This document shows positions 66 to 56,335 of a stretch of DNA of 64,000 bases, piece by piece. Below the pieces are notes generated by a model. The model searched no databases and was not told the origin of the DNA. It saw nothing but the letters and a program-made list of their open reading frames with translations. The first letter of the stretch is position 1, and every line of letters begins with the position of its first letter. The translations under genes and the position numbers were made by a program. Source of the stretch: Watersipora subatra (Eukaryota > Bryozoa > Gymnolaemata > Cheilostomatida > Watersiporidae); the NCBI RefSeq assembly GCF_963576615.1, contig NC_088714.1:30581143-30645142 (forward strand). The letters are read 5' to 3'.

Positions 66-245
66 TTGTGTAAATACTCTACTGGTGTCAGAGGAAAGAG
101 AAGCCACAGCCTTGTCAGCGCTGTTGGAACGTCCCGCTGCCCTCTTTCAAACATGTGAGTGGTTGTGTTGAGTTCGGCTATTTGTTCATTAAGCACTCTG
201 TGTTCCCGTCTACACTCGTTCAGCACTCTCGCAATGTGACCTGTT
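66..245 (-). CDS. ADAM17-like: Gene A exon 13: cytoplasmic tail, charged helical segment
   Basis: Acceptor CTGCCCTTCAG|A, donor CACAA|GTGGGT, 180 nt, the same length and phases as gene B exon 13. It encodes HIARVLNECRREHRVLNEQI and ALTRLWLLFPLTPVEYLH. The 59-codon alignment to gene B exon 13 has no gaps. It lies 7.7 kb from exon 12 across an intron filled by a satellite. Further exons should lie before position 1. Confidence 0.72.
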
Positions 246-6200: not shown

Positions 6201-9200
6201 CCTTTACAGTTTGATTTTTCCTCCTAATTTATTTCAACAAAACATTTCTTTCATGCTATGAAATTTAAAAGTTACAGTTGTTTGAAAAAGTTTGAAAACT
6301 TTACAGTTGTTTTATTTTTCTCTTAAATATTTAATTAAAATTAATTCTCTGTCCAAAGGCTTTTTCATTACCCCGTCAATGCCAGGCATTCCGCAAGTGC
6401 CATCATAAAAAACAACACGTGTCGCTTTCATTCTGTCGTGACTCATTGCTTGTTTGGAAGCAAAACACATGTGTGATGTGCCATATTTGTGTCATGAAAA
6501 CAGCCTGATTGACCAATAGCATCGCACTTGTGAGCACATAGGTCTTGCTTTCCTGTTGCTTTTTGTGCTAAAATTTTTGTTGTTAAAAGGTTCAAGTCTA
6601 TCGGTCTACTGGAAGCACCATATGAAAACACCAGCACTTACTTCATGCTTCAGTACTGACATACCCAGGTGTCACTCCACTGGCATACCCAGGTGTCACT
6701 TCACTGGCATACCCAGGTGTCACTCCACTGGCATACCCAGGTGTCACTTCACTAGCATACCCAGGTGTCACTCCACTGGCATACCCAGGTGTCACTCCAC
6801 TGGCATACCCAGGTGTCACTCCACTGGCATACCCAGGTGTCACTGCACTGGCATACCCAGGTGTCACTCAACTGGCACACCCAGGTGTCACTCCACTGGC
6901 ATACCCAGGTGTCGCTCCACTGGCACACCCAGGTGTCACTCCACTGGCACGCCCAGGTGTCGCTCCATTGGCATACCCAGGTGCCACTCCACTGGCATAC
7001 CCACGTGTCACTGCACTGGCACACCCAGGTGTCACTCCACTGGCACACCCAGGTGTAGCCTGTCTTGACAAGCTGTTGTTTTTGCGTAGTTGTCCCCTCG
7101 TCGAGCGGCGAGCAACAACAGCTTGTCACAAGACGTACTGCACCTGATGCATCAGCTGCACTTATAGGGAGTTGTTCTCTTCCGTCTACGCGGTTTGGCC
7201 GCGATGTTATGTCGGTCGCTCCATTGGTAATCATAACGGATTTCACGCAAAAATTTATGTAAAAAAAACAAGATTACAACGTTTAACCAAAGACCAGTTT
7301 CTGTGATAAACTTTAGTAGAACTTAAGAATAAAATAAACTCAAAATAAAATCCGTAAGAGCAAATAAAACTGACTGATACAAAAATATAAATAAAACTGA
7401 CTGAGCGCACAAATAACGACATGTTTAGTCGCTGTTGTTGCGTAAGTTCTCAAATTCTAATAAAGTTTACTGCAGAGACGGGTCGCCAGTTAAACGTTCT
7501 TATCTTAATTTTTCTACATAAATTTTTGTGTGAAATCTGTTATGATTACCAATGGAGCGACCGGAATAACATCGCAGCCGAGCCGCGTAGACGGAAGAGA
7601 ACAACTCCTTATACGTGCAGCTGATGCATCAGGTGCAGTACGTCTTGTGACAAGCTGTTGTTGCTCGCCGCTCGACGGGGGGGGGGGGAGGGGGGGACAA
7701 CTACGCAAAAACAACAGCTTGTCAAGACAGGCTAACCCAGGTGTTGCTCCACTGGCACACCCAGGTGTCGCTCTACTGGCATACCCAGGTGTCGCTCCAC
7801 TGGCACACCCAGGTGTCACTGCACTGGCACACCTAGGTGTCGCTCCACTATTGTTGTATAAAAACTTATTAATTGTAAAATATAGAAAGTAAAGTTCTCT
7901 AGTAGATAGATTGTTTTACCTGAATATGTGACTATCTCCTTCTCTCTCATATTGCGTACACTTGTAGATTACTAATAAAGCGATTAGCAAAAACACCGCT
8001 ACCATGGTCCCATACCTGCAGCAGATAAACGGACTTATTGCAAATTTCATTTTTTATTTTGTTTTTGGAGCAAAAAATAACCATGGAAAGCCATGATAAA
8101 AGAAGTATAAACTAGAGCTGTATAACTACAACGTGTTTAGACATTGTTACGCATTCTGTCACCAACACTGCCGAGGGTGTAGCTTCAATCAGAATGCATG
8201 TAGACCGTAAATTAACTATACTTGCCAGTTGTGATCAAACCAGCTCTTGGTAGCTTGCCCAAATACCGCAAGTCCAGCAACTCCCAAATAATCTAGTCCT
8301 GGCTGAATGCAAACCAGGTCTCCGTTGCAGAATCCACTCCTGTTGGCGCCACATGTAGATCCTACCAAAAATAAAAGTACTTTGGCCTCTTGCTCATCTA
8401 GTAGGGCCTATATCAAAGCTCATCAGAGTCACCCAGCTTCACTCATCCAGAACCTAAGGAACTGGTCTGTATTGGCAGCGTTTGCAGAGATTGACTTCGT
8501 GTATTGTCTCCTCTTGAGCTAGGTGTGTCACTAGTTATTTGATTGGTTTATACCAAGACAAGGGGTTTCCAGTTGTTATGAAGTTAAAGCAAGAAGAGCA
8601 TGTGTTAAGGTGGAATATTCTTGAAAGCATAGATATTTGGAATAATGCTATCTGGATAACACATGGCTTTCACTCGTTGGTATTGGTTAGCATTACTCTG
8701 AAAAGTTATCCATAATATTAAAAATTTATTATCAGTCAACCTTTTTCATTTTAATTGTTTATTGGTAGCAGTGATTCCCATCGTTGTTATGAAGTGATCT
8801 GCTGAATGACAACCAAAGCTGCAATCTACAAATCTATAGCGCTTTTCCTTGTACTTGACTTTGATTTATTTACTTCTATTGTCATATTAAACTTGCATAT
8901 GAGTGATGTATGTATTTGAAATAGATTATCCAGATAATAGCTATATGCTGATAACTATTATCAGAATAATATCCTCTTTCATACAGCTTTCAGCATACTA
9001 ATGAAAGTCTTCTTTACGTATTAAAAAGCTTGATGAAACCAATCTACACCCTCTCGTTGCTGCCAGTGTTCGTATTAACTTTACCTAACAAAGTTATTTT
9101 GTGTGAAAGGTTAAATGGCATCATTATCTTTATGTTGTTCGCCTCAAGCGAGTTTTTTGGATGTTATAGCGTGCATGTGGTTGGCTTGTAGAGCTGGGTA

Positions 9201-12200
9201 TACAAATGAAATTTGCAGAGGCATATCTATGGTAGATCTATCAGTCGCGTGTGATAATTTGGTTTATGATTTTTATCTTTTATGGTTAACAATCAACCCC
9301 CTCTTTGTTGTAAAGGTAAGGCGATTGAGTTACTTTCTCAAATGCTTAAAAAATAGTGGATTGCTAACAGAATCAAATCAAAACACAATTTTTTTAATGT
9401 TCTACATTTCTGATAATCGTAAGCCGCAAACAAGAAACTTAATGCTGCAATCCAGTGTTTGCACAAGTGATGTAAGTTATTGTTTGAAAATAAGAGAAAT
9501 AAAAGATGTCATAATGAAAGATAGTTCCATGTTACTCACCTGGCTCCAACCATTCAGCAGCATGAACAGCGTTCTCTGAGAACCATGGATAAGACATCGC
9601 AGGCTGACATACTGGGTCAAAATTTGAAGAGTTGACACAGCAAAGTCTACAAGCTTCAGTTGAAGATGAACAGTAGCAGTTGTCTAGTGCAGCCAACTCA
9701 CAGACTGATTTGGCACAGTGTCCAAATTCACACACCTGTGAGAGAAAAACATGTGCTCCACTCATTTTTGTGGCATTTTATAATCAAAACAATACATATT
9801 ATTAGGAATGCTCAGAGACAAGATAAGTTGCGATGGTAGCCTGTGTTATTATCAATTGAGCTGATGTTCGGGAATTAATTTAGTGTTTTTGGAATTGGAA
9901 TAAGTTATTTGGGATAAATAGTAATTCTTGAAGTTCAGAAGGAATTGTCAATAATGAGTTTTCTTTTTTGGCTTTTTGTACAACATGGCTTGTGGATTAA
10001 AAGCCATAAACCATATTGGCTTATGTAATTGTGAGCCATGTAGCTCAAGATTACATAACCTATCAACAGCTGTGAAACTGATCAAGTCAAAAAATGTCAT
10101 AAGCTTTTAGATATAAAGCGTCAACTGTTGCTATCTCAAGAAGAAGCTGTGGCTAAGAGATAAGATAGTTTCCATCAATTTACAGAGAAGTGAATAACTG
10201 ACAACACTGTGTATTGGAGAGACTGAACCATAATTGCTGTTTTTCCACCAACGTTGCTGACAAAGTAAGCGGGTAAAATTTCATTACTTCCTGTATAACA
10301 TAGTGTATCTAATCAGCCTCTTTAGGAACCTACGTATAGTTACTGTATAGTTACGTTCTAGCTGCTGTTTATCTTGTTTTGTTGAAAAAGGCGTACAGTC
10401 TAGTAAGAAGTATCAAAGATGGCCCGACTGTTCACATACCCTTGACCTAGACTTGCATAAGGTGTTGTTAGTCAGTGGGAACGCTTGAGGGCACCTGAAA
10501 TGCTCCCCGTCGCAGTAGGTTGGTTCCATGCACTCTTCCTCCTCGCCACACCTATGTTCGTCCTCGGCCTTAGTGATTTGACAGTCACTAGTACAACAAC
10601 TGTGAACTGCTGGTGTACAGACAGCGTTGAGATCTCTTCGTAGGAAGCACTCTACAATAAACAGGCAGCAACAACAGTTAAAACAGTTTACTGATATTTC
10701 CCTTATTTTACTTTGTGCTGCAACAGTGAATATCTAGTATCTCAAAACAAGGATTTTTGATGTCGTTATTTGAATTTTTTGAAAAGTTGTGTGAAAATGT
10801 GTTCAACTCTGTGTAAAAATGTGTTTAACTGTGTGTGAAAAAGTGTTTAACTTTGTGTGAAAATGTGTTTAACTCTGTGTGAAAATGTGTTTAACTGTGT
10901 GTGAAAATGTGTTTAACTTTGTATGAAAATGTGTTTAACTGGGTGTGAAAATGTGTTCAACTCTGTGTAAAAATGTGTTTAACTCTGTGTGAAAATGTGT
11001 TTAACTTTGTGTGAAAATGTGTTTAACTCTGTGTGAAAATGTGTTTAACTGTGTGTGAAAATGTGTTTAACTGTGTGTGAAAATGTGTTTAACTCTGTGT
11101 GAAAATGTGTTTAACTGTGTGTGAAAATGTGTTTAACTCTGTGTGAAAATGTGTTTAACTCTGTGTGAAAATGTGTTTAACTGTGTGTGAAAATGTGTTT
11201 AACTTTGTGTGAAAATGTGTTTAACTGTGTATGAAAATGTGTTTAACTCTGTGTGAAAATGTGTTTAACTCTGTGTGAAAATGTGTTTAACTGTGTGTGA
11301 AAATGTGTTTAACTTTGTGTGAAAATGTGTTTAACTGTGTGTGAAAATGTGTTCAACTCTGTGTAAAAATGTGTTTAACTTTGTGTGAAAATGTGTTTAA
11401 CTGTGTGTGAAAATGTGTTTAACTGTGTGTGAAAATGTGTTTAACTTTGTGTGAAAATGTGTTTAACTGGGTGTGAAAATGTGTTCAACTCTGTGTAAAA
11501 ATGTGTTTAACTCTGTGTGAAAATGTGTTTAACTGTGTGTGAAAATGTGTTCAACTCTGTGTAAAAATGTGTTTAACTTTGTGTGAAATTGTGTTTAACT
11601 GTGTATGAAAATGTGTTTAACTGTGTGTGAAATTGTGTTTAACTGTGTGCAGCCGTGTGAGAATCTGTATTATTTACAGGTCCCCTTCCAGCTTTCAGTA
11701 CATAAAATAAATTTCAATACTTTATAATACTAGCTTATTTACTAACATAATAATACTATTTTATAAATAATTAATGAATTTGAGCAACTTACTTGAAAAC
11801 CTAGATCTTTACTAAAATCTTTGCTAAAACAATACCTGCGTTTTAGGCCAGCTTAACAACCGTTATGCCTAACTGTCTACAGCGCTAGTTATTAACCTCA
11901 AGCCAGCACTTTAAGCGTGAGTATCTTAACCAATGTAATGACTATTTGCCCAATGAATCCATTGTATTCCATGTAGTTTAATGGTTAAGTTTGCTGCCTC
12001 TAAATTTGGAAATCCCAAGAACAAATCCAGTGCCATATGAGTTTTCCATTGCTAGATTTCTATTGCTATAACTGGACACAGCGTTGAACAAACACTAAGA
12101 TTAATATATTATATAATATAATGAGTCTAGTTAACTGGGTACCACCCTGTGGTACAGACTCTGTCAGAATTTTAAAGATTTTAACCAGTTTGGCCTCTAA

Positions 12201-15200
12201 TCATTTGAATATTTTACTTTTAATTTTTAGATATTATTTATAAATAAAATCGCATCGATACACTCACATTACGGATTAAATAAGAGTTTGCTAACATTTG
12301 ATCATCTAGCGTCCAAATCATATTCACATACTGACAGCGACAATTGAATGATTCTATGTGGCTGTTCACAACTGACATGAGCTTATCCCTGTTTTGATTA
12401 CATGAAGTCATTGACAAATTTTGACCTGGTATTATAGTTAATATAAAAAACAATTCAAGGCTCAACAAAAAGTTGTTTGAAAATATTTTGTACACAAAAC
12501 ATTTTCATTCGATTCTTCTGCTTGTAGTATGCTGAGCAATAGCTAAAGTTTTGTTTCAACTCTTTTTTTATTTTGTCTTTTTTTAAAAAACTTTTACAGA
12601 ATATCATTCAGTTGATTATTTTATATTAAACAATCTTAATCACTATTAATTTGACACCCTGTTAAAACTGCTGAAACTCCAACATTACCAAGCTTCAATT
12701 TTATTTTATAAGACTCCCACTTATAACTAAAGAAATAATCTCCACTCACCATTCTCCTGACCAGCAGGCGTGCAGCATTGATCTAAAGACGTGCAGGATA
12801 AGGCAGTTCCACAATCACATTCCTCTCCTTCTTCTACATGCCCGTTGCCACAGTAGGGAGCCTCCCAATTTCTTAAAACTTGGAGAGCTCGAATTCCAAC
12901 TATTATCTGTAATAATTTTGTTTCGGTATAATTGTTGATGGCTTTGGAAATGTGGATGATATTTACAGTATGATATATGATATATTACAATCACAATATA
13001 TTACAATTACAGATGATTATGATATATTGCAATATGTGCACTAATAAAGTTGAAAAAATGTGTGTCATCAAAGTTTGGTTTTTGAATTTGAGAGAAAGTT
13101 TGCATTGATTTTTTATTTTTTAACAATCATAGAAATTAGCTACTTTGTATTTGAATGAGGGCCAATCAGATGATTTATTAGTTGGCAGCTATTCAAGCTA
13201 TTTCACATGCTTTTATTTCAATCTGTTCAGACAAGCTGAAGGGATACAGAGGGTGAGTTTGGTTACACTCAGTCCTTCAGGAACTACATGTACAAGACGG
13301 GTGTTGATTGGAGGTTTGTGGTTTGATGGGAGGTCTTCGAACTACAGCCGCTAGGAAACCCAGACTTGTGTCAGTACTTAAGATTATCTGCTTTCATGAT
13401 ATATTGGTATTGCTATTTCATATTTGGATGGTTTAGTTTTGAGTTATGCCTGTCTCCTTTAAAAACACTGCTCTACAATGCAAAGCTAACAGACAGCGCA
13501 TATGACATGCTGTAGTTCGATTAATAAGATATGTGGTGATGAGAATGTTTGATATGGTAACAGCGTGGTTTGACATGATGAGATGATTTGATGCAATGAC
13601 AGGAAGATTTGATATGATGAGGCATTTGATCTTGCAAGATGGTTTAATGTGGTGAAAGAGTGATTTGGTGTGATGGAGGACGGTGTCATGACATCATGGG
13701 TTATGTCGATGTGACACTACATGTACAAAATGACGTTTTAGCTATAAACTGCTTTGATTATAAAAAATTCACAGGGTCTACCAGCTGACTTGAAGCTTAA
13801 CATAACCATTTTATAATATTTATTCAGCAATATTGCTGTAATCTTTATATGTATATATTAGATATGATATATATAGTTATATGTACTGTATATCTTAACT
13901 AGATGAATGCCAGCAGTGCACAGGTAATAAAATAATTAACCAATGAATTTGAGTAACTTAAGCTAGTAACTTAAGCTAGTTTAAATCTTTACTATAATAA
14001 GAGCCGTGTCCATCTGTCTGAAGCCAGCTTGTGCCTGAAAGCGTTTCGTTACGAGTCTTGATCTCTCATGCACTCATGATCTTCAAGCCTGCTAGTAGTA
14101 AACAATAGTATTTTTGCAAGCGCTTCAAGGGCTCATATTTTAACCGGCATAGTAAGTGTGTGCACAATTATTCATTGGTGTTGCCAGTTGGAAGTATAGT
14201 GGACGCCTGTCTGCAGAACTGAGGGTTCATTGTTGAAATCTTGTGCGAAGTGAATTTTTTGTTTCTAAAACTTTTTTCCTATAACTGGCATACGGATGAC
14301 AAACAACAAATGCTGAGACATATAGATGTAAGATATCCGTATATGGTATAGTGATTTGCCTTTATGAACTATATAACCACAAATTGATTAAATGGCTGAT
14401 CTCACAATTCATAGGCAGCTGAAACATTGTATGTTATTTAAACAACTACAATAAACAAAGAACACCATCTAAATTGTTGCTTATGGAATATGCATTACTA
14501 ATATTGGTAGACCACGACATGAAATACCCTTAACTCCTAAGTAATATGTATGCAACATACGGGATGCGGCAACAATATGCACCCACGATATCATACTTTG
14601 CAAAGTTTATTTGGGTTGCCGAAATTAGGTTATTGCTGTGCCCGACTATGTTGCAGGAGCTTGGGCTAAAGACATCTCTAAAATGGACCTATAGGATGCT
14701 GTAGATCTCTCAGCTTAGGAAGCCACAAGGATGTATACCAGAGCGTATGAAGGAGCTTGCTTTTTCCATTTAGCGGAGACCGTGATGAATGCATATATAA
14801 CAGTTATTTTAGATGCCGTTTACATAAAGTCCTTCAGCAGAAAGCTATGCAGTATCAATGCAATCTGAAATCATTGCATTTTGTGCTGGCCGATTAGATT
14901 GGCTATAAAGCTATGCATTTGTCATTGACCTGTGCTCCCGCATGTGGTACGAGTTAGCTGCATGAGTGCATGATTATAAATTATTTCACAAACAAATTTC
15001 TTCTAATTAAAATTAAGTTGTTCTGCAATGATTTTCATAAACTGCTGTCCACATTTAATGGTACATATGAGCATACAGGAACATGTCATAACGCATCTAA
15101 CTACCGGGCCTATTAGAGTGTACAATTAGGGTAGACATTTGTTGACTCTACTGCATGTAGAGAGACCACAAAACAATATAAATTGTTATTATAGGATGTA

Positions 15201-43600: not shown

Positions 43601-46600
43601 AACTTTACATGTATTTCACAGTTGGTATAACATAAAACCCCTATAATGTAAAAATTCCTGGAATGGATTATTTATGTTGTAGGAGCGTCTACCGTATAAG
43701 TTAATGAATATGGTAAGAATTCTAGAGAATATGCTCAAAAGGTTAATGCTTACGCCAATTTGTTTCTTTGAACACGAAGAGAAAAAATAATTGTTAGGAT
43801 TGTATCCATGGGTTGGATGAGGGTGCATTATATACTTGCCTCCCTCAGCAGTTGCAGGAGAACAATGTCGACCTTTAAATAAGATAAACTAGATTTGTGT
43901 AATCAAGTCGTATGTAATGCAATGTGATCAGTTTTGAGACACTAGTTCAGAGCTAGTCCACAACTGTCACTCAAGTAAAATAAGCGAAATACTAATGATC
44001 ACGAAGCATGCTTTGAGTATTCAAACTGGTTAACGTTTCTATGGGAACCAAACGTAAAAATTTAGTTGTCTTCCTTACCAAATAATTATTTTACTTTATT
44101 ATCTTGTGACCTTTGAAGGTTAAGTGTCACACTTTGATTTGAACAAACTATATGCCGAATGAGATCAATATCCAATACCAATATCCAATACTGAGCCTAT
44201 CAAAATCCAATATCAATATCCAATACTGGGTCTGTCAATATCCAACACCAATATCTAACACTTAGCTTGTCAATACGCAATACCAATATCTAATACTGAG
44301 CCTGCCAATATACGTCATCAACATCCAATACTGAGCCAGTTGATATACATATCAAGACCCAATACTGAACCAGTCGATATACATATCAATACCCAATACT
44401 GAACCAGTCAATATACATATCAATACCCAACACTGAACAAGACAAGATCCAATACCAATGTCCGATACTAATACCTGATACTTAACCTGTCAATATCTAA
44501 TACCAATATCCAATACTGAGCCTGTCATTATCCAATACCAATATCTGATACTTGACTTGTCAATATTCAATACCAATATCTAATATTTAACCTGTCAATA
44601 TCCAATACCAATATCTGATACTTGACTTGTCAATATTCGATACCAATATCTAATATTTAACCTGTCAATATCCAATACCAATATTAAATATTAAGCGAGA
44701 TGATATCCAATACCAATACTCAATACAAATAACATAAAATTCCATTAGAATTTTCAATAGTAATGTATTGGATTTGGACAATAGTATTAGCCTCAAGCCT
44801 GGTGGTAGGCTTATACAAAATATATGCAGACAGGATTTTATTGATATTCTAAACTCTGAAGGTCTCAACATCACAACATAAAAATAGAACAAACCAGGAC
44901 CTCGGTGAAGTTATGCTACCAACAAAAAGCTACATTACCTGTTACATTCGGGTCATGTTTTGACCCAAATAAGTGGCCTATTTCATGTGCAACTACCAAC
45001 TGCATAGAAAGAATAGGTAACCGTTTGTCACTGAGCAAGTTGGTGATGATTCCATGGTTTCTTCGTTCTCCCATGCCACCACTGCGATACATCAAAATAT
45101 GAAGCACCCGATATTAAGTACATAACTTACTAAACAGCAAAATATATCTATTATAAACAATAACATATAATATTATAGTAATATTGCATAATTATTATAT
45201 ATTTTGCATTATTATTACGCATTATTATAACATATTATATAACAATGTGTATATGAACAACGATACTATTTCTAAAAGTCCTACAGAATCTTCATCAGCT
45301 AGGAATTTCGGCTCCGTGAGAGAATTCATTTGAATTATGAGACCATGAACACCACCTAAGAACACCTAAGCAATGATATCTATGGTTTGTTAAAGATTAA
45401 CTTGCGCAATAGTTGTTTAGTAGGTTTTATCAGAAAATATCGGTATTTTTCTATCATCCACGATTGTTTTTGATGTTTGAGATGATCTGACTGCCAGGAT
45501 GTTTCAAGATTAAAATCGATGAAAGTTGCCCACTGCATGCATATTTCAGTTTAACTGTCTCAGAAGAAAAATAGATATGAAGTGACGCCACTAGTTGTTA
45601 CCGTTGCTATAGTTGATGTCGGCTATTGTGTTCAAGTTGCAGCGTTGTGCATCTCTATTCTGTCGGTCTCTTTGTAGCTATAGACATCATAATCACACTT
45701 TCATTTGATCTGAACGCTTTAAACCGTGATCAAGTTTTGTTGATTCTAATCTTGAAACATCCTGGTAGTCAGATCACCTCAAACATCAGAAACAATCGCA
45801 AATGATTAAAAACACCATTAAGTTCTGATAAAATCTACTAACATGTTGTGCACATTCATCTTTAAATGAACATGCATATGATAAGAGAAGCTATTTAGGT
45901 TTACAGTGTCAGCTTTGCATTGCCATGTTATTCTACAAACCGTAAAAAAATTACGCCTAAAACTTGCTTGACTTCAAAACTTACTCATAAGAAGGAGTTT
46001 ACAGCAGCATTGTCACTGAGTACGTTTCTATATACAGCAACAGTATATACATAATTAGTATACACATAATTAGTATACGCACCATTAGTATACACATAAT
46101 TAGTGTATACATCATTAGTATACACATGATTAGTATACACATAATTAGTATATATATATAATTAGTATATATATAATTAGTACATACATAATTAGTATAT
46201 ATATAATTAGTATATACATAATTAGTATATATATAATTAGTATATACATAATTAGTACATACACAATTAGTATATATATAATTAGTATATACATAAATAG
46301 TATATAAAATTAGTATATATATAATTAGTATATATATAATTAATATATATATAATTAGTACATACATAATTAGTATATATATAATTAGTATATACATAAT
46401 TAGTATATAAAATTAGTATATATAATTAGTATATATAACTAATATATATATAATTAGTATATAAATAATTACCCTAGTATATGCATAATTAGTATACACA
46501 TAATTAGTATACACATAATTAGTATACACATAATTAGTATACACATAATTAGTATATATATAATTAGTATACACACAATTATTATATACATAATTAGTAT

Positions 46601-49600
46601 AGCATGGAGCATCTCACAGCTCACATGAATACTTATGAAAATTGAGGAGTTGTCAACCATTACAAAACATTTGTTGCATGATCAACGACATCATCTTTCA
46701 TCATCATCTTTGCATGATCTCTGTAAGCTATGTGAGTATTATAGGTTGTAGATTCCAAATACTAACTAAATATAAACTAAGGTTTATTATCTATAACAGT
46801 ATAACTCATTCTAGTGGTCAATTTGGGTAACAAATTATCAAGATAATGTCAATTGTAAACTAAACTTGCATGCGAGTCATTGATTGATTGAGTTTGCTGA
46901 CTTGTGCTAAAAGTTATATTTTATCAGTAAAAATCTTTCCTATATAAAACAGGATTTTTCCGATTTATTTTATTTCCATAACTGATGAGAACACTAAGAC
47001 TTGCGAATCTAAACTATAAACAGCCATTTATTGAGAGAAATAAGACTTTTGTTTGTTCTCAAATTGTTTAACATCTGAGTTCTATATATGGTTCACTTTT
47101 ATCAGCTTTAAAACAACATCTAAAAGATCCTTACATGTTCGCGAATTAAAATTTTAAAAAAATTAAAACTTTTAATTTTGAGTGTATAAGTGTCAGTTTC
47201 GCTGAACAGTGATCTAAAATTCATTTGCCGCACAGAGTTGTCCACTCTTTTTTTTTTCAAATTAGCAAAATAAAGAGTAATTCTAAATTCTACTCATAAT
47301 TGTATGCAGTAGTTTGACATAATTATACGCTTGACCATCAAAATTAACCACATTCATTTATTAAATTAAGTGATTACCTTAATGATTAACTGATCATTTG
47401 GTAAACAGCTCAAGAATTCTAATAATACATAGTTATTATTTTACTGTTTAGCTATGTTATTATGTTGCTCTGTAGGAAAATGGTTCAACAAATTCTTGCT
47501 CCAGTTCATTTGCTTTTAGTAATGAAACTTTGTTTATGATCATAATTAAGTTTTTTTTATATAATTTCATATATAATAATATATAATTTCATATTTTTAA
47601 CACACTGATAGAGTTTAGTTTCATTTTAGTGCATGTAATTGTAATATAATATATATAATATGACAATAATTACATCATATACATTATAATTTAATATATA
47701 TAATTTAATTATATTATAATATAATATATATAATATATTATAATATAATTACACTATATATATTATATATAATATATTATAACATATTATATATAATAAT
47801 ATATTATACTAGCTCCCTATCCTGGCTGGCTATACTATAATGGCTGGTTAGTCATTGTATGAATATGAGGCTACAACAGACAGACCTCAAATAGCTTTTG
47901 AAATACGTATCTATAAAGACAAATTCATGCTATTTTTACATACATGGGTATCTTAGCATTGTTAGCCAAGTATGCAAGCCCCAGAGTTGGCTGAAAGTCT
48001 TGATAGGTGAATGCAAGAACAATGCAAGAGCCTTTAATCCTACAAAGAGAAACAAGAGACACATTTACACAGCAAGAGTTATTTTATTCATATAATGTAC
48101 TAACTGAATGCCTGGCATTGCTCGATTAATACAAAAAATTTTTGAGCAGAAGAATTGTTTTTATTTAACATATACAACATTTTTCATTCTATTTTTTAAA
48201 CTTCATATCATAAGAAAAGTATTTTGTTCAGTTCAAAATAAATTAAAAAATAAACAACAGTGAAGATGGTTTAGTTATGAAACAAAGAGTAATGGTAAGA
48301 TCAAGTCAGTACTATTACAATGACTACAAGGAAAAATGATTTGATACTTATACAATTAATACAAACTGAAAAAAACAAAATAAAAATAATGAATATGTTG
48401 AATTAATAATAACAATTAGTACATGCAAATGTGTGTATAAAAAGGTTACTGTGTTGCAGCAGAAGCTATCCATCAAAATTTTGAATACAGCTGTATTGGT
48501 ACCAACGTAAAAATGAGATATCGGAAGTATCTAAAAATAATACTAAAGCAGCGTAGCGCACGAGAGAACCTTGTCTGACTGAACTGAGAGAGAATGTAGA
48601 AGCAATTTCTATTCAAGATAACACAACATACAACTGTCCATGTGAAAAGTTTTTAGTGTTTTACAGTTTTTAGATATTGACGTCAGGAATAGTTGTTAGT
48701 AGAACCAGAAATTAAAGGATTGTAAATTAAAACGCCCCATTTAAAAATGACAAACAAAAATAATAGCGGGTGACCATGGAGCTTTTAAAAACTTTCGAAA
48801 GAAAAACAAATGCAAGAAGTAATATTAATTAATATTAAAAAGTACATACTTAACTTGTAACCTGCAATCGCCGCTAGAAGTAATAGTAATACGACTCCGA
48901 TATGCCGAACCGATGCAATGAAGGAAAACACGCCGAACCAATACATTCTAGATAGTGATAGATAAGATGATCAAAATTAATTAAGACAGTTTAGCGTATA
49001 GTTACACGCACTAGTGTAGAGACTTTGAGGTTTTGAGTTGAAATCCAGTGTGATGCAGTCTTTTTGTTCTTAGGTTTTAATTGCTATAACTGGACAGACG
49101 AACAACAAACCGATGACAGACAAAAGCTGAGGTTCACAGATAAAAGATAAAAAAATAACGGTTTAGACGTTCTAATAACTCATAACAATGGAGAACAAAA
49201 GTTTTGCTACTTGCTCATGAAAAATACATTTACGACAGTTCATTTATGTTACATTTTCAAAGTACAAAAAAAATTTCAATTTTTGACATCATCGTTGAAA
49301 ATTCATACAATTGTTTTTAGTAAGGCAATTTTACCATTCAACACAACTAAAAAAGGTTTCCATAGGTATTTGTAGTACCTAGTACCTATTTTCAAATTTT
49401 TCCTAGTTTCAAGATGTGACAAAGCACTTTGTGAATATTAAAATAAAGCAAACAACATTATTTGAACATCCTTAAATACATACTTTAATCTTTTAACATA
49501 CTTATGCATAAACCAAACACAGTAATTGTAGCTGTGCACTCAAGTGTTCACTTCCAACTGTGTACCCAAGCGTTTACTTGACTAATTGAAGGAAGGTCAA

Positions 49601-52600
49601 TATAGCGGTTAAGTATCACTAATTTAACCCTACCGTATCCCATGTGACATACGTGTATATGTAACAACAGTTTGGTAGAGTTGCTTTACCATCAATATGC
49701 ATTTAAGTGAAAAACTTCCACATAGGCCAGAAAGAGTAACCATTTACCTTCACAATGATATCAAATCTGATTGGTTTACAACAAGTCATGTGACCTGAGA
49801 CAATTCTATTTAGTTCTCTCTAAATTTGAAGTAACTTGTTAAGTAAACCAGAACTATCGAGCTGGACACATCAGCATCGGTAGTGTAATAATGTAATGGT
49901 GTAGTGTAAAACTAGTGTAATAACATAAAAAGCAATGCTTGTTTTATTTTATAAAGTATACATGTAGATGAAAATTGATGTCAATGGAAGTGAAGCATTG
50001 AATATCTAACTTAATTTTCACAGTCTGGGTACTGAGGGTAGTGTAGTGTCTGGTAGGCCTACTGAGGGTATTTAAAAACAAATTACTATATAAGCACTTT
50101 TAGGCAGCGTTTTATTGCATCTTCAAATAAGAGGTAAACGAAAAGAATGCAAATCAAAAGTTGGGTTTGACACAACTCAAAATATAAAACATTTTTGACA
50201 CCATAAATTTTATAAAATTCTCTTGTTACATATCTTTGCAATCTTCATGACAATAAATCAATGCTTAGCAGCAAGTACCAAATAGACTTGGCTCTTTGCA
50301 GCAAAAAGCAAAGAGTTTGCGGCGTGAAACACAAAAACATCTGTGAAACCTTTGCCAAATTAGAATTCAGTCAATTACATATTTACAATTCAGTTTGTTT
50401 AAATTAGAACATTGCGTGAAATCTGAAATGTTGCCTCATCTCTTCACTGGTTACCCTAGTCTCACTCCTGTCACATGTTACGCACAAAGTCAGTTGAAGA
50501 AACCTACCAATAGTTTGAGCCAAAAGTATGTAAGAAGGAGCCAACACTCGGTGTCTCTGTCAAGTAATTATATCCTCGCAGCTTGTCGATGAAAGTGAGG
50601 CTAGCCATTATTATACCGACCCTGTCTATTGAGCCATCTCCATCAAAATCAGTTTGTGAATAAATCTGGTGATAGAAATGCATTATATTTGTTAGCAGTA
50701 TTATATAAGTAAAGTTAAGTGACTTATATGTATTGAAAGAAAAATCTATTTTAGCATAACGCTATTCTATAGCCTAAGGTCAATTAGCAAGATGTTCATG
50801 TCTGATATATGGTGTCATGATTTTTTGCAGAAGTAGGAATGTAATGGATGGTCAGGCAGGTTAGAGATACGATTTGAGTATTTTAAACAGCTAATATATA
50901 AAAACACATTTAGCTCCTCAGCATTAAGGCCATTTAGATGCTGGTCGTAACTGTCTATATCAAGTATCATAACTCTAAAGCATAATTTTTGAAAGCATTC
51001 TAAAAAAAGCAAAAACGGATAAAGGATGAGAAAATAAAAGTAAGGAGAGCAAGGAAATTACGCCTCTATAAATTAGATCATTCAGATATGTAACATCTAA
51101 CAAACATTGATGTCTTCCATCAAGTTAGTATCAACATGTCATTCAACTGTATAAAGTTGGCAAGCCTTTCCTGCGGCTTACTGACACTGCGTAGTTCATT
51201 TCCTTGTTGTATGGTAACTTTTAACAGCAGTTAAATAATTTTTTAGCTATATTCACTACAGAATTCTCGACAAGATACAACCTATTTAAAATTCTATACC
51301 TTCAATTTGACTGGTTTTATACTTTTTTAAATCGGTACACAAAAACGAAGGCAAAAAATTGCCGAAGCTAAGTATCTGGTTTAATTTATCTTATTGTTAT
51401 GAAACAAGTAACACAATCATCGTGAATCATCGTCAATCTTGTTATGTAAAATTTTTGGGAGTTTATGATTCTGCTTCAACCAATCAAAACTGCTTTAGCA
51501 AAGTTTGTGATCAACCGCTCCAACTGGTCAGTTATTCTTATTCAACTATCGGTTTTTACAGGCCTTTTTGGTTTCGGAATTTTTCTTGGTAAGTGTTAGG
51601 TTTAGAAATAATATTTTTTTGAATTGCTTAAAAATTGCCCAAGTCAAAAAATTTATATTGTACAGCTTTCAAAAACCTTTCCACTCTAAGCTTGAAAGAA
51701 TCCAAAAGAGCATTGATTACACAACTACTACAATCCTAGTCATAGCGCCTCCTTGTGCTTAATAGAAAAATGTCCTCTGTAGTTCAAAATATGGTGACAA
51801 GGCTTTCAAAATATGATGACAAGGCTCTCATAGTAAGCACTAAAACCTTGTCATCATAACAGCTTTTCAAGCTGTTATGATGACAAGGTTTCAGTGCTTA
51901 CTATGAGAGACATGGCTAACATGAGAAGTCACAAAACATGTGTAATATTATTTTTTGTTCTTATCGTTAATAATCTCCTGCATTTTAGGGGAAGTTTAGA
52001 AATAATTTCTACAAACTATTTCTTTTCCATTTTTATGAAATGGATGCATTTAGTAAAACTAACCATTTTATATATCATTAGCAAGGAGATTTTGTGATGA
52101 ATAGGGTGCAAATTTCAGTTTAAAGAAATAACCACTACTTCTAGAATTATGAAAAATTATATGTGGCCAGGTTAACTTTTGAAATTGTTTTGAAAATTCG
52201 TTCTCACTTTAAAGAGTTGAGACAAAATGAAAACCTAATACACCATATATATATAGTATATATACACTATATATATGTATATATAGTATATATATACACT
52301 ATATATGTATATATACTATATATACACTATATATAGTATATATATACTATATATATATGCTGTATATATATAGTATATATATGTTGTATATATATAGTAT
52401 ATATATATACTATATATATATTCACACAGATAACTGGCAGGTTCCCATAAAAAACTGGCAGGTTCACATAGAGAACTGACAGGTTCACCTAGAAAACTGG
52501 CAGGTTCACATAGAGAACTGGCAGGTTTGCATAGAGAACTGGCAGGTTTGCATAGAGAACTGGCAGGTTCACATAGAGAACTGGCGGGTTCACATAGATA

Positions 52601-55600
52601 ACTGGCAGGTTCCCATAAAAAACTGGCAGGTTCACATAAAAAACTGGCAGGTTCACATAGAGAACTGACAGGTTCCCCTGGAAAACTGGCAGGTTCACAT
52701 AGAGAGCTGGCAGGTGCACATAGAGAACTGGCAGGTGCACATAGAGAACTGGCAGGTTCACATAGAGAACTGGCAAGTTCACATAGAGAACTGGCAGGTT
52801 TACATAGAGAACTGGCATGTTTACATACCATTCATAGAGGAGGTCTATTAGTCTACTCAAGGTGGTTAAAGTCTGAATAAAGTGTATAGAAATAAGCATT
52901 CTATCTGACAACACTGAACCAAATTAATAAGGAAAAGCTAACGGAAAAGAGACCCGTTACCTCGTGAACAGTGCGGATGGTTTGAGTTATGATCTTCGCA
53001 GCCTCGAGGATGTTTCCGTGAGCCATATAGTGCACAAAGTATCCGTCTACAAAAACATGCACCTCGCAGAAACGATTTTCCATGAGGCCAGCACGTTTTC
53101 TTCTGTAATGTTCATGCAGAGAAAACCCGTTAAAGGTTGTTATATTACAATTAGCATATAATAAAGAGACTGAGCAATGAGAGGGAAGAATAGGAGAAAG
53201 ATAAAATGGAGTCACAGATTTGTCTAAAAGACACCTGATTAGCAAAACCAAACAAGATGTTTGATCTTGAGTGGATTTTATGGGCAGAATTGTAATCAAC
53301 TAGGTTCAGGGGAGATTTTATACAAATATTTTATATGATCTATCATAAAATATTTAAGCATTGAGCGAATGTAGTGGTCTGGCTATGGTGGATAACACAG
53401 AATGATTGTGAGTTATTTTTCATGAGAGCCAAATAACTGTCCGTAATTTCCAAGATTTTGATTGAACAGTTTGCCATGCAATGACACAAGGAAACAACAA
53501 AGAAAATCACACCAAAAATCCTTCAAGTGTCACCATTATGAAAAAGACAGTTGAGTAACACAGGATCACAATTAAAAATATTTTGTATCTCAACCACTGG
53601 ATGTCTTCACATTGATTTTTTTCAAAAATAACAAATATTATTCCTACCACAGATAGAGAGTTATGCAATTAGGTAACCATGTTGTTCCTTGAAACCTCTA
53701 CCAGCTGACAGCACACCAAACAATTTTTAATTTAATTATCAAAGGTTTTAATATTTTTAATGTTAACAAGTTCTCAATTTTGTACATGCTCTCGAGTCAT
53801 ATAAACACAGTATATAAAGAGATTAATAACACACAGTATAAACAAATTCAAGTTCAAAAGAGTTCTAAATTGAAATTTTTTCACATCAGATGCACAATGA
53901 GGTAGCAATGGATTACAACCAGTTGTTCTATTACAAGCAGTACAATCCACAATGTTGTGTGTTTGAGCAATCACTCGAAGAAAGAGTAAGTTGTCTGCTT
54001 AGCTTACTGCAATCTATTATTTTAAGAACAATGGAGCACAAAAAATGGCTCTGTGATTATGACTAAACATGTCTGCAACCAGTGGCAAGGGAACCTCGAT
54101 GACTAAAAACATGCCTAGTTGTGGAGAGCAATTCAAGGTTGGATACCACTCTTGTTAGCACTGGTACCCTTTTTGGTAATCGAACCCAAACCTGTTATTA
54201 GCAAGCCAGCCATTTTAGACCATGACTGCTCTATGCAAGATTAAAATGGTGCAACGCTAAACAATATATCTATGAGTTGTGGACAATTGTACCTACTTCC
54301 AAATCTACTGACAAAATACACCAATTCTAAACCTAGTTCCATGTTTTTACTACAATTTATTTGATATGGTTTACAGAGTAAGATCATCTAGCAAATAGCA
54401 GACCAATATTGAGCTAAGTTATTTAAGGTTTTGTACCAGAGGTTCATGAAACGTTCTAGTTTTCACGAAAGTTCTAAATTTTAGCTTCCTTTATCGTACC
54501 TGTTACGAGCTTCGTGTATCTCATTTATGGACTGGTGATATTCTCTGTATAAAGAGGTAAGGTAATAAGGATGTCTATGCGGCTCTGAAGTCGGTTGTGC
54601 CAAATATACATAGTCTTTTGTAACATGCTCGACATCATCTTCAAAATATAATATACTAAGATCCTTTCGACCAGGTTTATGCCTGTCCAATGCTTCTAAA
54701 TAAAACGTTACGTTATGAAGGACGACCACCCCTTCAAATGTCAGATCATGATAGAGAGTTCCATGAACGTAACTCTGGGTGTTTATGGAGCTCACGTGTC
54801 CATGGTAGTATATGATAGTGTTAGGAATGTCATATATACCGCTGCTGTTTTCTACCTTGAAACTAGTTAATTTCCTGTAGAATTTGTGTGGCTCTTGCTT
54901 TTCCTCGGTAAGGCTCAAGGAAAATGCTATTTCGCCGCTAACTGTCACCAAATCAATTTTAATCACTGCCTTCACTCGCTCTTTTATCTAAAAATTTAAC
55001 TAGGTCAGAGTAGATGAAGTAATAGCACAAGATTACAGTATGGATATCAGCAAGACAATAGCGACCATTTTGATTCATGACCAATTGGAATTAAAAACAA
55101 TTTCAATTTGATTGGATAATTTTATAGCGAGCCTTTTGATTGGTGAAACGAAGTTTTTTTTTACCAAATTGTCTATATACATCGAGTACTTTAACAGAGA
55201 GCTGATTTTCAATAATCTCTATCTTGTTAACGTATGTAGACAATGGAAACACAGAAAGGTCAGCTGATAGCATAAGGTACTAACAACGATATTATATAAG
55301 GTAGATGCAATGTCCAACCAGTCATCTACGTAATCTAAGAGTTTGAGACCTGATGATATAAACACGACTGCAGAGCACTTTTAACTATTCTTATGGGAGC
55401 TCTATAATGCAAGTTTGACGCTATTAGATACAAACTGGTTGCCTCTTGTTTGTGTTTAATGATATTTTACTAAATGAATATGACCAATCTCGGTGTATAT
55501 ATCTTTGACTAAGAATTGCGAATGGTCAAACTTGTTTTTAAGTTACCAAACAAGCAATTACAAGAAAGAACATGTCTAGCTCACACACATTGGGATAACA

Positions 55601-56335
55601 AAAATTCTCATTGAGTAGTGAATCTTGATTGTGCCAACAATATTTTGAAACTAGAAACGAAAAGGCTGTCAGCCTAATGTGATTTATTATGATCTTTCAT
55701 GATTCATCCTATGTACAAGTTGGTCAGGCTTTTAAATACTGATATTTCAATTTAAGTAACATAATATTGAATATGTACGTATGTTGTCTTTATATGCAGT
55801 TAGTACTACTAGAGCACAAACTAAAAAGAACTCTACACTGAAAATTAAATTTATGCAGAGCAAAATAATGATATGAGTAAGCACAAAAAATATGTAGCTA
55901 GAAGGCACTACAAATCTGTCTCGAGCAACTGTTCCTTTCAGGTTGCCACCGGAAGTGTGCGATAGCGCGAAACAGATTGGTAGTGACTTCTAGCTAAGTA
56001 TTTTTCCCTCTTATCCATATTATATATACCGCATGTATACACATGTATATGTTATATGCAGAACCTTGAAAACTTATATACATAAGTAAGACAATCACAT
56101 ACTTTCTAAACGAAAGGTTGCGTGGCTCAGGCACAGAAAAATTGGGCGATGTTTTCCAGAACACAAAAACCAAACAAGCCAAACTTATAAAATAATTCAG
56201 AAAGTTAATACATACCTTTGTTTGTACAATTTTATAATTAGATATCAAATCAAACTCTTCCTTATCCGATCTCTCGGCAACAGCAGTGCGAAGGCCCAGT
56301 ATGGTAACCAGCAAAAAATAGAATGACTTCAACAT
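28491..56335 (-). CDS. ADAM17-like: Gene B: ADAM17-like membrane metalloprotease, complete, 15 exons
   Basis: Coding exons on the minus strand: 56216-56335, 54500-54987, 52961-53102, 50508-50665, 47944-48039, 44939-45081, 43754-43872, 41247-41403, 37695-37906, 35514-35709, 33641-33761, 33361-33459, 31084-31263, 29061-29166, 28491-28697. They sum to 2544 nt (847 aa plus stop) and every junction is in phase with GT-AG borders. Domains in order: signal peptide (about 1-20), prodomain (41-202), furin site RRKR (203-206), reprolysin-type protease with zinc site HEIGHLFGSKHD (367-378), Met-turn YIMH, disintegrin-like and cysteine-rich parts, transmembrane helix (about 652-670) and a cytoplasmic tail of about 177 aa. 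ADAM17 family members shed ectodomains of membrane proteins at the cell surface. The HDP after the third histidine, the GGKYIM and FSxCSK motifs and the GFCD..xC membrane-proximal motif are closer to ADAM17 than to ADAM10. The join of exon 12 to 13 is inferred from phase and from the same layout in gene A. Confidence 0.85.
29061..29166 (-). CDS. ADAM17-like: Gene B exon 14: cytoplasmic tail
   Basis: Acceptor TTATTTTAG|A, donor CCCAG|GTCAGT, 106 nt, phase 2 in and 0 out. It encodes VMVHSANEAGAVKYLLMIKE and MAADVTVHSNLKSQ, probably helical. It follows exon 13 in frame by completing an Arg codon. Confidence 0.7.
29270..29860. repeat. 30-bp minisatellite, about 20 copies
   Basis: Unit contains ACTAAAGGAGTACACAGGTA. 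Deletions of 12 bp occur in some units and always keep the triplet frame, so long open frames exist on both strands. It lies in intron 13 of gene B and is not considered coding. Confidence 0.95.
31084..31263 (-). CDS. ADAM17-like: Gene B exon 13: cytoplasmic tail, charged helical segment
   Basis: Acceptor TATTTTCTAG|A, donor CACAG|GTTAGC, 180 nt, phase 2 in and out. It encodes a charged, probably coiled-coil stretch (QECKRQEVRIDKQMRLLEEN) and then FARLILLFPRTSLEQIH. It aligns without gaps to 66-245 in gene A (for example ECxR at residues 10-13 of the exon, QI/QM, TA, RLxLLFPxT). I assign it to the ADAM gene because the exon 12 donor is in the matching phase in both copies and no other upstream exon is visible. 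The domain itself I do not recognise. Confidence 0.7.
31791..32044. repeat. 20-bp minisatellite, 12.7 copies
   Basis: Perfect copies of GTAATCTGACAGCCTGATAG. It lies where the sister foldback copies have one GATCTGACTGCCAGGATG, so the array apparently grew from that segment. Confidence 0.97.
32121..32752. repeat. 19-bp minisatellite with 21- and 25-bp variants
   Basis: Main unit TTCCTATTGTGATCACTAG. Longer units insert ATAATATCAA or AC. It lies where the sister copies have a single CCACTAGTTGTTACCGTTGC. Confidence 0.95.
33084..33089 (-). terminator. Possible polyadenylation signal for short gene B isoform
   Basis: AATAAA on the minus strand, about 270 nt after the TAG that overlaps the exon 12 donor. 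It could end a transcript that reads through that donor. Single hexamers are common by chance in AT-rich DNA. Confidence 0.3.
33361..33459 (-). CDS. ADAM17-like: Gene B exon 12: transmembrane helix
   Basis: Acceptor TGTTACAG|G, donor TTTTCG|GTAGCA (phase 2), 99 nt. It encodes the hydrophobic run ALMVVIFLFVMLFIFYIC and then charged TKEEE, a type I membrane anchor. If the donor is not used, the codon after CGG is TAG (33357-33359), giving a tail of only about 14 residues. An AATAAA lies at 33084-33089 on this strand and could serve that short transcript. Confidence 0.82.
33641..33761 (-). CDS. ADAM17-like: Gene B exon 11: membrane-proximal stalk
   Basis: Acceptor GTTTTGCAG|GT, donor GGCTG|GTAAGT (GT, phase 2), 121 nt. 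It encodes GSLCHNETGFCDTSHVC and then an amphipathic stretch (FVTLLSKNLFSEWFDIG) where ADAM17 has its juxtamembrane CANDIS-type segment. The donor is the reference for the altered GC donor in gene A. Confidence 0.86.
33837..34334. repeat. 13-bp minisatellite, about 38 copies
   Basis: Unit TATCAACAATGTA with TGTCAACAATGTA variants. All three plus-strand frames are open by construction. It lies in intron 10 of gene B. Confidence 0.97.
35085..35320 (-). mobile_element. SINE-like repeat, family 2
   Basis: On the minus strand CTGGCCAGTTGGTCTAGAAC (A box-like) precedes GTGGTTCAATTCCC (B box-like). The TGCCTAGTTGTAGAGAGC segment is shared with 54060-54240. Confidence 0.65.
35514..35709 (-). CDS. 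ADAM17-like: Gene B exon 10: cysteine-rich membrane-proximal part
   Basis: Acceptor TTTGACAG|ATA, donor CCTG|GTGAGT, 196 nt as in gene A. It encodes GQCRGSVCESAGLDDCSCAS and KLCCVN, which parallel GKC..FCE..ESCACN and CKVCC in ADAM17. Confidence 0.87.
35838..36258. mobile_element. Foldback element copy 2
   Basis: Left arm TTTAGTAGATGTTATCA...TATTGATATTTTT and right arm AAAAATACTGATA...TGATAAAATCTACTAAA are inverted repeats of about 120 bp. The middle has TTCATTCTGTCGGTCTCTTT. No protein is encoded. In intron 9 of gene B. Confidence 0.85.
36414..37260. repeat. 25-bp minisatellite, about 34 copies
   Basis: Almost perfect units with GTCTGCAATGTGCACCACTT then AGATA; only the first and fourth copies show changes. 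In intron 9 of gene B. The homogeneity suggests a recent expansion. Confidence 0.97.
37695..37906 (-). CDS. ADAM17-like: Gene B exon 9: disintegrin and cysteine-rich part
   Basis: Acceptor TACTTGTAG|AA, donor CGG|GTTTGT, 212 nt as in gene A. It encodes VCTPTVHSCCTSGCQV and EECKEPSYCDGVSRDCPQP, matching the CxxxSYCxGxSxxCP pattern of ADAM17. The exon phase (1 in, 0 out) agrees with gene A. Confidence 0.88.
38120..39125 (-). mobile_element. Dispersed repeat, copy 2 (inverted relative to copy 1)
   Basis: Reverse-complement counterpart of 370-1260, inside intron 8 of gene B. It contains TCCGATCAGATGGGTAAG and GTACCACAATTTCGTACCTG as landmarks, plus an AT-rich insertion near 38565-38670 that copy 1 lacks. 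Confidence 0.75.
39195..39355 (+). mobile_element. SINE-like repeat, family 3
   Basis: A tRNA-like head (GGCAGGTGGTAGTAAAGC, GGATTGGAACCCCG) is followed by the tail CAGACACGGCTCTTATTATA. The tail recurs at 43215-43285 and near 57210, and in reverse at about 13985-14020. Confidence 0.6.
40640..40810 (+). mobile_element. SINE-like repeat, family 1 tail
   Basis: Ends TTTATCGCCATAACTGGACA, then CACATTTATAGATAAAAGAT, matching the family 1 tail at 48995-49155. In intron 8 of gene B. Confidence 0.6.
41247..41403 (-). CDS. ADAM17-like: Gene B exon 8: disintegrin-like domain, first part
   Basis: Acceptor GACTTTCAG|GCA, donor AATG|GTGAGC, 157 nt as in gene A. It encodes YCGNGHVEDGEECDCG followed by CTSLDQCC, the classical opening of an ADAM disintegrin domain. 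Several stretches are nearly identical in DNA to gene A exon 8. Confidence 0.9.
43754..43872 (-). CDS. ADAM17-like: Gene B exon 7: Met-turn and end of protease domain
   Basis: Acceptor TTTAAAG|GT, donor GGC|GTAAGC, 119 nt as in gene A. It encodes HCSPATAEGGKYIMHP with the conserved Met-turn methionine, then NNYFFSSCSKKQIG, which matches KMFSNCSKQSI of ADAM17. Confidence 0.88.
44145..44740. repeat. Degenerate repeat of about 35-40 bp
   Basis: About 15 diverged copies built on CAATATCCAATACCAATATC and ACTGAGCCTGTC. In intron 6 of gene B, starting about 275 bp from exon 7. Confidence 0.85.
44939..45081 (-). CDS. ADAM17-like: Gene B exon 6: zinc-binding catalytic site
   Basis: Acceptor TATCGCAG|T, donor ACAG|GTAATG, 143 nt as in gene A. 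It encodes NHGIITNLLSDKR and then HEIGHLFGSKHDPN. The three zinc-binding histidines, the catalytic Glu and the Asp of the reprolysin motif are all present, so the enzyme should be active. Confidence 0.92.
45408..45870. mobile_element. Foldback element copy 3
   Basis: The left arm (TAGTAGGTTTTATCAGAAAA) and right arm (GTTCTGATAAAATCTACTAA) form inverted repeats of about 120 bp. This is the most complete unexpanded copy, with single versions of the segments amplified in copy 1. In intron 5 of gene B. Confidence 0.85.
46040..46600. repeat. 15-bp AT-rich minisatellite
   Basis: Many copies of ATTAGTATATACATA with CACATA variants. In intron 5 of gene B. Confidence 0.93.
47560..47810. repeat. AT-rich low-complexity tract
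   Basis: Mostly TATAATATA and TATATAAT words with strong self-complementarity. It ends about 130 bp before exon 5 of gene B. Confidence 0.9.
47944..48039 (-). CDS. ADAM17-like: Gene B exon 5: protease domain, TYQDF segment
   Basis: Acceptor CTTTGTAG|G, donor CCCAT|GTATGT, 96 nt. It encodes CIVLAFTYQDFQPTLGLAYL, a close match to CLAHLFTYQDF..GTLGLAYV of ADAM17. It is short, but flanked by good splice sites and in phase on both sides. Confidence 0.85.
48995..49155 (+). mobile_element. SINE-like repeat, family 1 tail
   Basis: A tRNA-like segment (GAGTTGAAATCCAGTGTG as B box) is followed by TTTTAATTGCTATAACTGGA and GATAAAAGATAAAAAAATAA. In intron 4 of gene B. Confidence 0.6.
50508..50665 (-). 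CDS. ADAM17-like: Gene B exon 4: protease domain
   Basis: Acceptor TATCACCAG|ATT, donor TG|GTAGGT, 158 nt, the same as gene A exon 4. It encodes IYSQTDFDGDGSIDRVG and the following helix. The reading frame joins exon 3 in phase 0 and exon 5 in phase 2, restoring a Trp codon. Confidence 0.8.
51825..51909. repeat. 85-nt near-perfect hairpin
   Basis: Two 41-nt arms (51825-51865 and 51869-51909) pair with a single A-C mismatch around a 3-nt TTC loop. The arm contains ACCTTGTCATCATAACAGCT. Partial copies of ATGATGACAAGG lie just to the left (51791-51824). In intron 3 of gene B. Confidence 0.95.
52235..52425. repeat. ATATAGTATATAC simple repeat
   Basis: Self-complementary AT repeat next to the 21-bp array, in intron 3 of gene B. 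Confidence 0.9.
52430..52825. repeat. 21-bp minisatellite, about 18 copies
   Basis: Unit GGCAGGTTCACATAGAGAAC plus T, with A-rich variants (CATAAAAAACTGG). The 21-bp period leaves minus-strand frames open; they are not coding. It ends about 135 bp before exon 3 of gene B. Confidence 0.95.
52961..53102 (-). CDS. ADAM17-like: Gene B exon 3: furin site and start of protease domain
   Basis: Acceptor TTACAG|A, donor GAG|GTAACG. The first base completes an Arg codon split by the intron, giving RRKR followed by AGL, a proprotein convertase site. Then comes CEVHVFVDGYFVHYMAHGN, the first strand and helix of an ADAM catalytic domain (compare CKLLVVADHRFYRYMGRG in ADAM17). Confidence 0.85.
54060..54240 (-). 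mobile_element. SINE-like repeat, family 2
   Basis: On the minus strand TGGTCTAAAATGGCTGGCTT and GGGTTCGATTACC resemble tRNA A and B boxes. TGCCTAGTTGTGGAGAGCA is shared with 35085-35320. In intron 2 of gene B. Confidence 0.65.
54500..54987 (-). CDS. ADAM17-like: Gene B exon 2: ADAM prodomain
   Basis: Acceptor TTTTTAG|ATA, donor AG|GTACGA (phase 2). The middle encodes a prodomain core with FKVENSSGIYDIP and YYHGHVSS, comparable to the FTGHVVGE stretch of ADAM17, and then SILYFEDDV, comparable to YKSEDI. The prodomain keeps the protease latent and acts as its folding chaperone. The first 35 codons differ strongly from gene A while the core is nearly identical at DNA level. Confidence 0.85.
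56216..56335 (-). CDS. ADAM17-like: Gene B exon 1: signal peptide
   Basis: The start is the ATG at 56335, followed by a hydrophobic run (FYFLLVTILGL) and a small-residue cleavage region (TAVAERSD). A second in-frame ATG 16 codons upstream would put a less typical leader in front, so I prefer this one. The exon ends AAG|GTATGT in phase 0. Its length of 120 nt equals exon 1 of gene A. Confidence 0.8.

Follow-up and report, generated by a model that had tools for sequence, protein, structure and literature searches.

Our results suggest that two neighbouring genes of the bryozoan Watersipora subatra encode divergent ADAM10-like sheddases with a conserved CUE/UBA-like cytoplasmic domain, and we give an even chance to this reading taken together with the ubiquitin-linked sorting that it implies. 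On the most likely reading, the two genes represent an undescribed ADAM10-like subfamily in which a CUE-like cytoplasmic domain, probably of the ubiquitin-binding type, is built into the protease. ADAM10 and ADAM17, which together form one ADAM10/17 branch of the adamalysins, liberate growth factors and initiate Notch and TNF signalling. A subfamily that naturally has a conserved, folded tail resembling ubiquitin receptors would link ubiquitin sorting directly to ectodomain shedding. The genes lie in a window (the whole stretch of DNA analysed) of 64,000 nucleotides, C7:30581143-30645142 of a 784-Mb genome.

A translated search comparing the two halves of the window revealed a pair of paralogous minus-strand genes, gene B from 56335 to 28491 and gene A from 22794 to past the left edge. 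Acceptors, donors and phases were read exon by exon, and the exon junctions given here are those implied by splice sites and phases. The predicted product of gene B is a protein of 847 residues. Its exon 1 (56216..56335), which encodes the signal peptide and the start of the prodomain, begins at the second in-frame Met, the other Met lying at 56383. Exon 2 (54500..54987, 488 nt) encodes prodomain without a cysteine, and exon 3 (52961..53102) carries the furin-type site RRKR at its start, with the metalloprotease domain beginning in the same exon. Exons 4 (50508..50665) and 5 (47944..48039) are followed by exon 6 (44939..45081), which contains the zinc site HEIGHLFGSKHD, and by exon 7 (43754..43872), which contains the Met-turn YIMHP. 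The disintegrin domain starts in exon 8 (41247..41403) and continues in exon 9 (37695..37906); exon 10 (35514..35709) encodes an ADAM10-like Cys-rich part, which ends in exon 11 (33641..33761), and exon 12 (33361..33459) encodes the transmembrane helix and has a phase-2 donor. The corresponding exons of gene A, on the same strand, are exon 2 (22301..22794, 494 nt, again prodomain without cysteine), exon 3 (20550..20688), exon 4 (19125..19282), exon 5 (16997..17092), exon 6 with the zinc site HELGHSFGSVHD (16437..16579), exon 7 (15756..15874), the disintegrin exons 8 (12750..12906) and 9 (10440..10651), the Cys-rich exon 10 (9540..9735), exon 11 (8226..8361) and the transmembrane exon 12 (7920..8015), again with a phase-2 donor. 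A simple scan of 22770-31083 found no first coding exon with a signal peptide for gene A. Exon 11 of gene A has an apparent GC donor at 8226/8225 on the minus strand (CTG|GCAAGT), in contrast to the GT of gene B.

The first-pass annotation had described two paralogues with matching exon lengths and phases, each with an intact zinc site. The zinc sites and the phases are as described, but the lengths agree only in part. They are equal in nine compared exons (4-10, 13 and 14), an equality that the comparison script itself required, and differ by multiples of three in exon 2 (488 nt in B, 494 in A), exon 3 (142 and 139), exon 11 (121 and 136) and the transmembrane exon 12 (99 and 96).

The genes had also been labelled ADAM17-like, and this label has to be given up. 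Both proteins combine an HExxHxxGxxHD zinc site with a match to the Pfam model Reprolysin_2 (70.8 bits for B and 69.5 for A, against a cut-off of 27), as is characteristic of M12B metalloproteases (adamalysins), and both fall slightly below the cut-off of the Disintegrin model (34.1 and 31.9 against 35.1 bits). In a phmmer search of solved structures, gene B scores higher with ADAM10 (8esv, 186 bits) than with ADAM17 (155 bits). A protein database search with the ectodomain returned 31 proteins at E 0.001; those of the top rows that carry a name are ADAM10 or ADAM10-like, and an ADAM17-like protein, from a weevil, stands at row 22 of 31. The Pfam model ADAM17_MPD (PF16698) gave no match to the ectodomain of B at E<=10, nor to A or B at E<=0.001, and ADAM17 identity was rejected on these scores and this absence. 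The ADAM10_Cys-rich model (PF21299) gave no match at the same thresholds, and the trees pair A with B (support 100/99 and 100/100) without giving them a firm place among the ADAM10s; the proteins are therefore called ADAM10-like here and not ADAM10. By sequence they are a divergent ADAM10-like branch, nearer to ADAM10 than to ADAM17. They resemble ADAM10 (Kuzbanian) in domain order, zinc site, furin-type site and the sequence of the disintegrin and Cys-rich parts, and differ from it in lacking the ADAM10_Cys-rich match and in prodomain exons (exons 1 and 2 of B, exon 2 of A) that lack cysteine; with ADAM17 they share the zinc site. Since no cysteine is present in residues 21-205 of gene B (prodomain, exons 1-2) or in the exon-2 prodomain part of gene A, inhibition by a cysteine switch seems to be absent, and the furin-type basic sites are kept.

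Beyond the transmembrane helix, both genes have three extra exons. The phase-2 donor of exon 12 fits the 180-nt exon 13 in both copies (junctions 33361/31263 and 7920/245 in the sequence), and exon 13 has phase 2 at both ends and aligns between A and B over 59 codons without a gap, with 21/59 residues identical. In gene B, exon 13 (31084..31263, minus strand) encodes a predicted long helix and the first half of the CUE-like domain with its FP motif, exon 14 (29061..29166, 106 nt) the second half (AVKYLL...P), and exon 15 with the stop (28491..28697) a segment of 68 residues predicted to form a helix-loop-helix. In gene A, exon 13 (66..245, 180 nt) is followed, left of the window, by exon 14 (C7:30579276-30579381, 106 nt) and exon 15 (C7:30578961-30579170). 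The resulting tail, of 163 residues in B and 164 in A, is conserved and predicted to be helical, much as the first-pass annotation had supposed. Aligned with each other, the two tails score 278; 2000 shuffles averaged 33 and peaked at 66, so the likeness is not due to chance.

A similar tail is present in an annotated gene model from a hemichordate, the acorn worm Glandiceps talaboti. This ADAM10-like protein (P0001) is the top match to the ectodomain, has the same type of ectodomain and carries a homologous tail domain past its transmembrane helix. An alignment of the three tails (A, B and P0001) has 17 invariant columns. Shuffle tests of the whole tails against P0001 gave fitted p values of 1.5e-6 (A) and 3e-5 (B), and because one shuffle in 5000 scored 80 against the observed 67 for B and P0001, the fitted p overstates the strength of the comparison with B alone. 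Restricted to the domain, the tests gave p values of 6e-8 for A and 2e-6 for B, the highest shuffle scores being 41 and 45 and the observed scores 70 and 60. A profile of tails A and B, run against the 31 proteins, found P0001 at E 6.7e-8 and the other 30 at E 2.7 or worse; the ADAM10s of bee, springtail and scallop are without a profile match, which bears out the view that this tail is unlike the other ADAM10-type tails compared. P0001 stops after the CUE-like domain and, unlike the tandem pair, lacks the exon-15 segment. Wider searches returned nothing further: tail B against 5.8 billion proteins gave 222 candidates, none at E<=10, and the P0001 tail found only itself among 374 candidates, these being searches that need shared five-residue words and whose absences are thus weak evidence. 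At residues 679-699, just past its transmembrane helix, an ADAM10-type protein of Nephila pilipes (P0017) ends in a sequence with a weak likeness to the tail domain's first half (E 0.13 with a profile of A, B and C); it may be an arthropod member whose gene model is truncated.

A third tail-bearing gene of W. subatra, gene C, lies at C7:38.8 Mb and was reached through its ectodomain. A genome search with tail B gave six rows, all of them within genes A and B, and missed it. In gene C, the transmembrane segment is followed by SMAYKDGRM, where P0001 has SMAYATGRM, and the tail exons encode IAIRRIAYQFPTAPHSLYSR and YMVQCEREREVVKLLLLKGYPM, separated by a phase-2 intron at the same codon as in the window genes; the exon-15 segment is missing. 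The first tail-profile match was weak (E 0.009 among the open frames of that stretch), and with gene C held out of the profile the match was at E 0.037, the best of 5574 open frames from 16 loci, with the first half only reaching 9.5. Because the profile match is weak, the case for gene C is made by position, order, intron phase and motif together. As gene C and the hemichordate protein have a homologous tail in the same place, the tail predates the tandem duplication, and its presence in an acorn worm suggests that the domain is probably old. The trees do not resolve the tail-bearing proteins as monophyletic.

Profiles and structure prediction, the means by which the first-pass annotation had proposed that the tail be checked, give no curated family in the libraries searched and a predicted three-helix core of the CUE/UBA type. 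AlphaFold2, run on the tail with a shallow alignment, predicts a long helix followed by a three-helix bundle, and CUE or UBA-type domains take all of the first seven places among its Foldseek matches, at E 0.43 or worse. The F and P are invariant in all four domain sequences and are followed, 24-25 residues on, by a hydrophobic pair (LL, LI, MI and LL). The predicted domain is like the CUE domains of gp78, AUP1 and SMARCAD1 in its predicted three-helix bundle, where FP closes the first short helix, and the pair in the third helix lies at the FP-to-LL spacing of gp78 and AUP1. It is unlike them in having no significant sequence match, in sitting in the cytoplasmic tail of a metalloprotease and in having an invariant proline after the third helix. 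The Pfam CUE model matches none of the four domain sequences at E<=10, in a search whose HMMER filters drop weak matches. At the same threshold, tail A matches only NPCC (0.1) and C2H2_ASCIZ_4th (0.25), the P0001 tail only Fpg-like_C (0.12), all far below cut-off, and tail B nothing in Pfam. Tail B also has no match in NCBIfam and none at E<=10 in a phmmer search of the PDB; an hmmsearch of the PDB with a four-row domain profile gave three matches at E 0.69-1.2, which we read as chance. The suggestion that the tail might be something undescribed thus holds in that no library used gives it a name, but not in the sense of a tail private to the tandem pair, given gene C and the hemichordate protein; the accompanying idea of a signalling or scaffold domain can probably be narrowed, on the structural models, to a domain of the ubiquitin-binding type.

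Two observations concern resemblances noted by eye. A stretch of exon 15 (LGITEPT...) looked like the end of a SAM domain, an identification that found no support: single-sequence AlphaFold2 gave a helix-loop-helix (mean pLDDT 71.6, pTM 0.35), and this model has no Foldseek match at E<=10. An ankyrin resemblance of EVVKLLLLKGYP was likewise dropped.

The FP and LL motifs of CUE domains contact ubiquitin. It is nevertheless conceivable that the bundle of the sheddase tail is CUE-shaped without binding ubiquitin, having lost that ability or never had it, and serves as a docking or dimerisation module, as in the pairing of SMARCAD1 CUE1 with KAP1 (a complex named in the title of PDB entry 6h3a). 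The nearest structural matches are indeed SMARCAD1 CUE1 chains from entries with KAP1, the residue preceding FP is L in the window genes and M in 4 of 5 CUE rows compared, and the helix periodicity of A and C suits pairing, the coiled-coil signal of the tail helix being mixed. Retention of both CUE contact motifs in all four domain sequences argues against this explanation, which we consider rather unlikely, if still a serious contender.

In the predicted architecture, the cytoplasmic part consists of a long juxtamembrane helix and a CUE/UBA-type three-helix bundle, to which the tandem pair adds a helix-loop-helix end. The CUE-like domain would bind ubiquitin (or a partner) through its FP/LL face, the ubiquitin being carried by membrane cargo, adaptors or ligases, and the sheddase could then be sorted together with ubiquitylated membrane proteins during endocytosis and endosomal sorting, or be brought into contact with the trafficking machinery. 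Alternatively, the sheddase may be brought to its substrates as these become ubiquitylated. The long helix may space or pair the tails. A stronger proposal, which we put forward only tentatively and with the balance somewhat against it, is that of an ancient and undescribed subfamily of ADAM10-like sheddases, present in at least this protostome and a hemichordate, in which a ubiquitin-binding CUE-type domain in the protease tail lets ubiquitylation steer shedding directly. To our knowledge, shedding steered by ubiquitylation through the protease's own tail is known in no ADAM protease.

Known tails of this branch are of a different nature. The ADAM17 tail is short or disordered, and that of vertebrates is of another kind than the tail described here. 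In excerpts of a published account, the ADAM10 tail is described as short and as combining an SH3-binding site with a proline-rich region that is disordered (PMC8124674); the tails of the window genes, by contrast, have 163-164 residues and are predicted to be folded. The shortness or disorder of the known tails makes it difficult to find out how they steer ADAM10 and ADAM17. Kuzbanian-like (KUL) and the vertebrate ADAM10-like proteins are ADAM10 paralogues for which the authors infer independent duplications (PMC3055250); excerpts of that paper describe no such tail for them. Among the open-access literature matches listed, as titles and abstract starts, there was no ADAM with a CUE or UBA domain.

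A fast-evolving cytoplasmic tail of the ordinary ADAM10 or ADAM17 kind, containing no special domain, would also account for the lack of a curated domain. Identity between A and B in the tail (21/59 in exon 13 and 15/35 in exon 14) resembles that of metalloprotease exons 4 and 5 (21/52, the least conserved compared, and 14/31) and is below that of the disintegrin exons (34/52 and 42/70), as such a tail might show. We think this improbable, given that the profile of A and B picks out the hemichordate protein only and that constraint by codon position is clear. In exons 13 and 14 together, A and B differ at 31/95 second codon positions and 62/96 third positions (Fisher p 1.3e-5), and in exon 15 at 15/49 and 33/49 (p 5e-4); in seven ectodomain exons the figures are 99/360 and 203/360. 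As second positions differ far less than third, the tail is constrained at the protein level.

It is very improbable that exons 13-15 are a separate gene, downstream in the duplicated unit and outside the sheddase transcript. In favour of such a gene, the intron between exons 12 and 13 measures 2097 nt in gene B and 7674 nt in gene A (where it contains a 3-kb minisatellite), and in-frame Met codons in exon 13, at residue 31 in both copies and also at residue 22 in B, make an internal start compatible with sequence alone. Against it, the phases of exons 12 and 13 are compatible in both copies, the stretch of exon 13 upstream of the first Met is likewise conserved between A and B, the annotated P0001 has ectodomain, transmembrane helix and tail in a single protein, and in gene C a single open exon takes in both the transmembrane segment and the beginning of the tail.

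The minisatellite, of 80 copies of a 38-bp unit with 98% matches at 2174-5213, makes up much of this intron of gene A and is followed by two 24-bp arrays (6655-7056 and 7735-7849). Introns of the two genes also harbour an inverted pair of stretches of about 0.9-1.0 kb (377-1260 and 38124-39121) that resembles a repeat element, its two longest pieces being 79% and 86% identical. The window contained no RNA families and no tRNAs.

ADAM10-type loci are expanded in the genome beyond the window pair. Further ADAM10/17-type loci lie at C7:65.2, C7:38.9, C7:38.8, C5:61.0 and C5:56.8 Mb, with a partial one at C4:9.1 Mb; that at C7:65.2 Mb clusters with scallop ADAM10s (support 95/99), a placement that by itself suggests a mollusc or an animal close to the molluscs. 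In the five such loci other than gene C, whose downstream flanks were partly covered, tail matches were at E 1.6 at best. Gene C itself contains a 51-bp unit repeated 7.0 times (L048:2829-3185), an array whose end lies in the last tail exon and which copies the splice acceptor and exon start in frame, and a second short array before the transmembrane exon (about L048:700-860) seems to act alike; such arrays of duplicated acceptors could give variable exon starts. Elsewhere, Reprolysin_2 matches occur in five stop-free frames of 423-585 residues (C8:50567149, C3:71266247, C2:2125908, C3:65818817 and C2:66580182), which are possibly intronless M12B metalloprotease genes.
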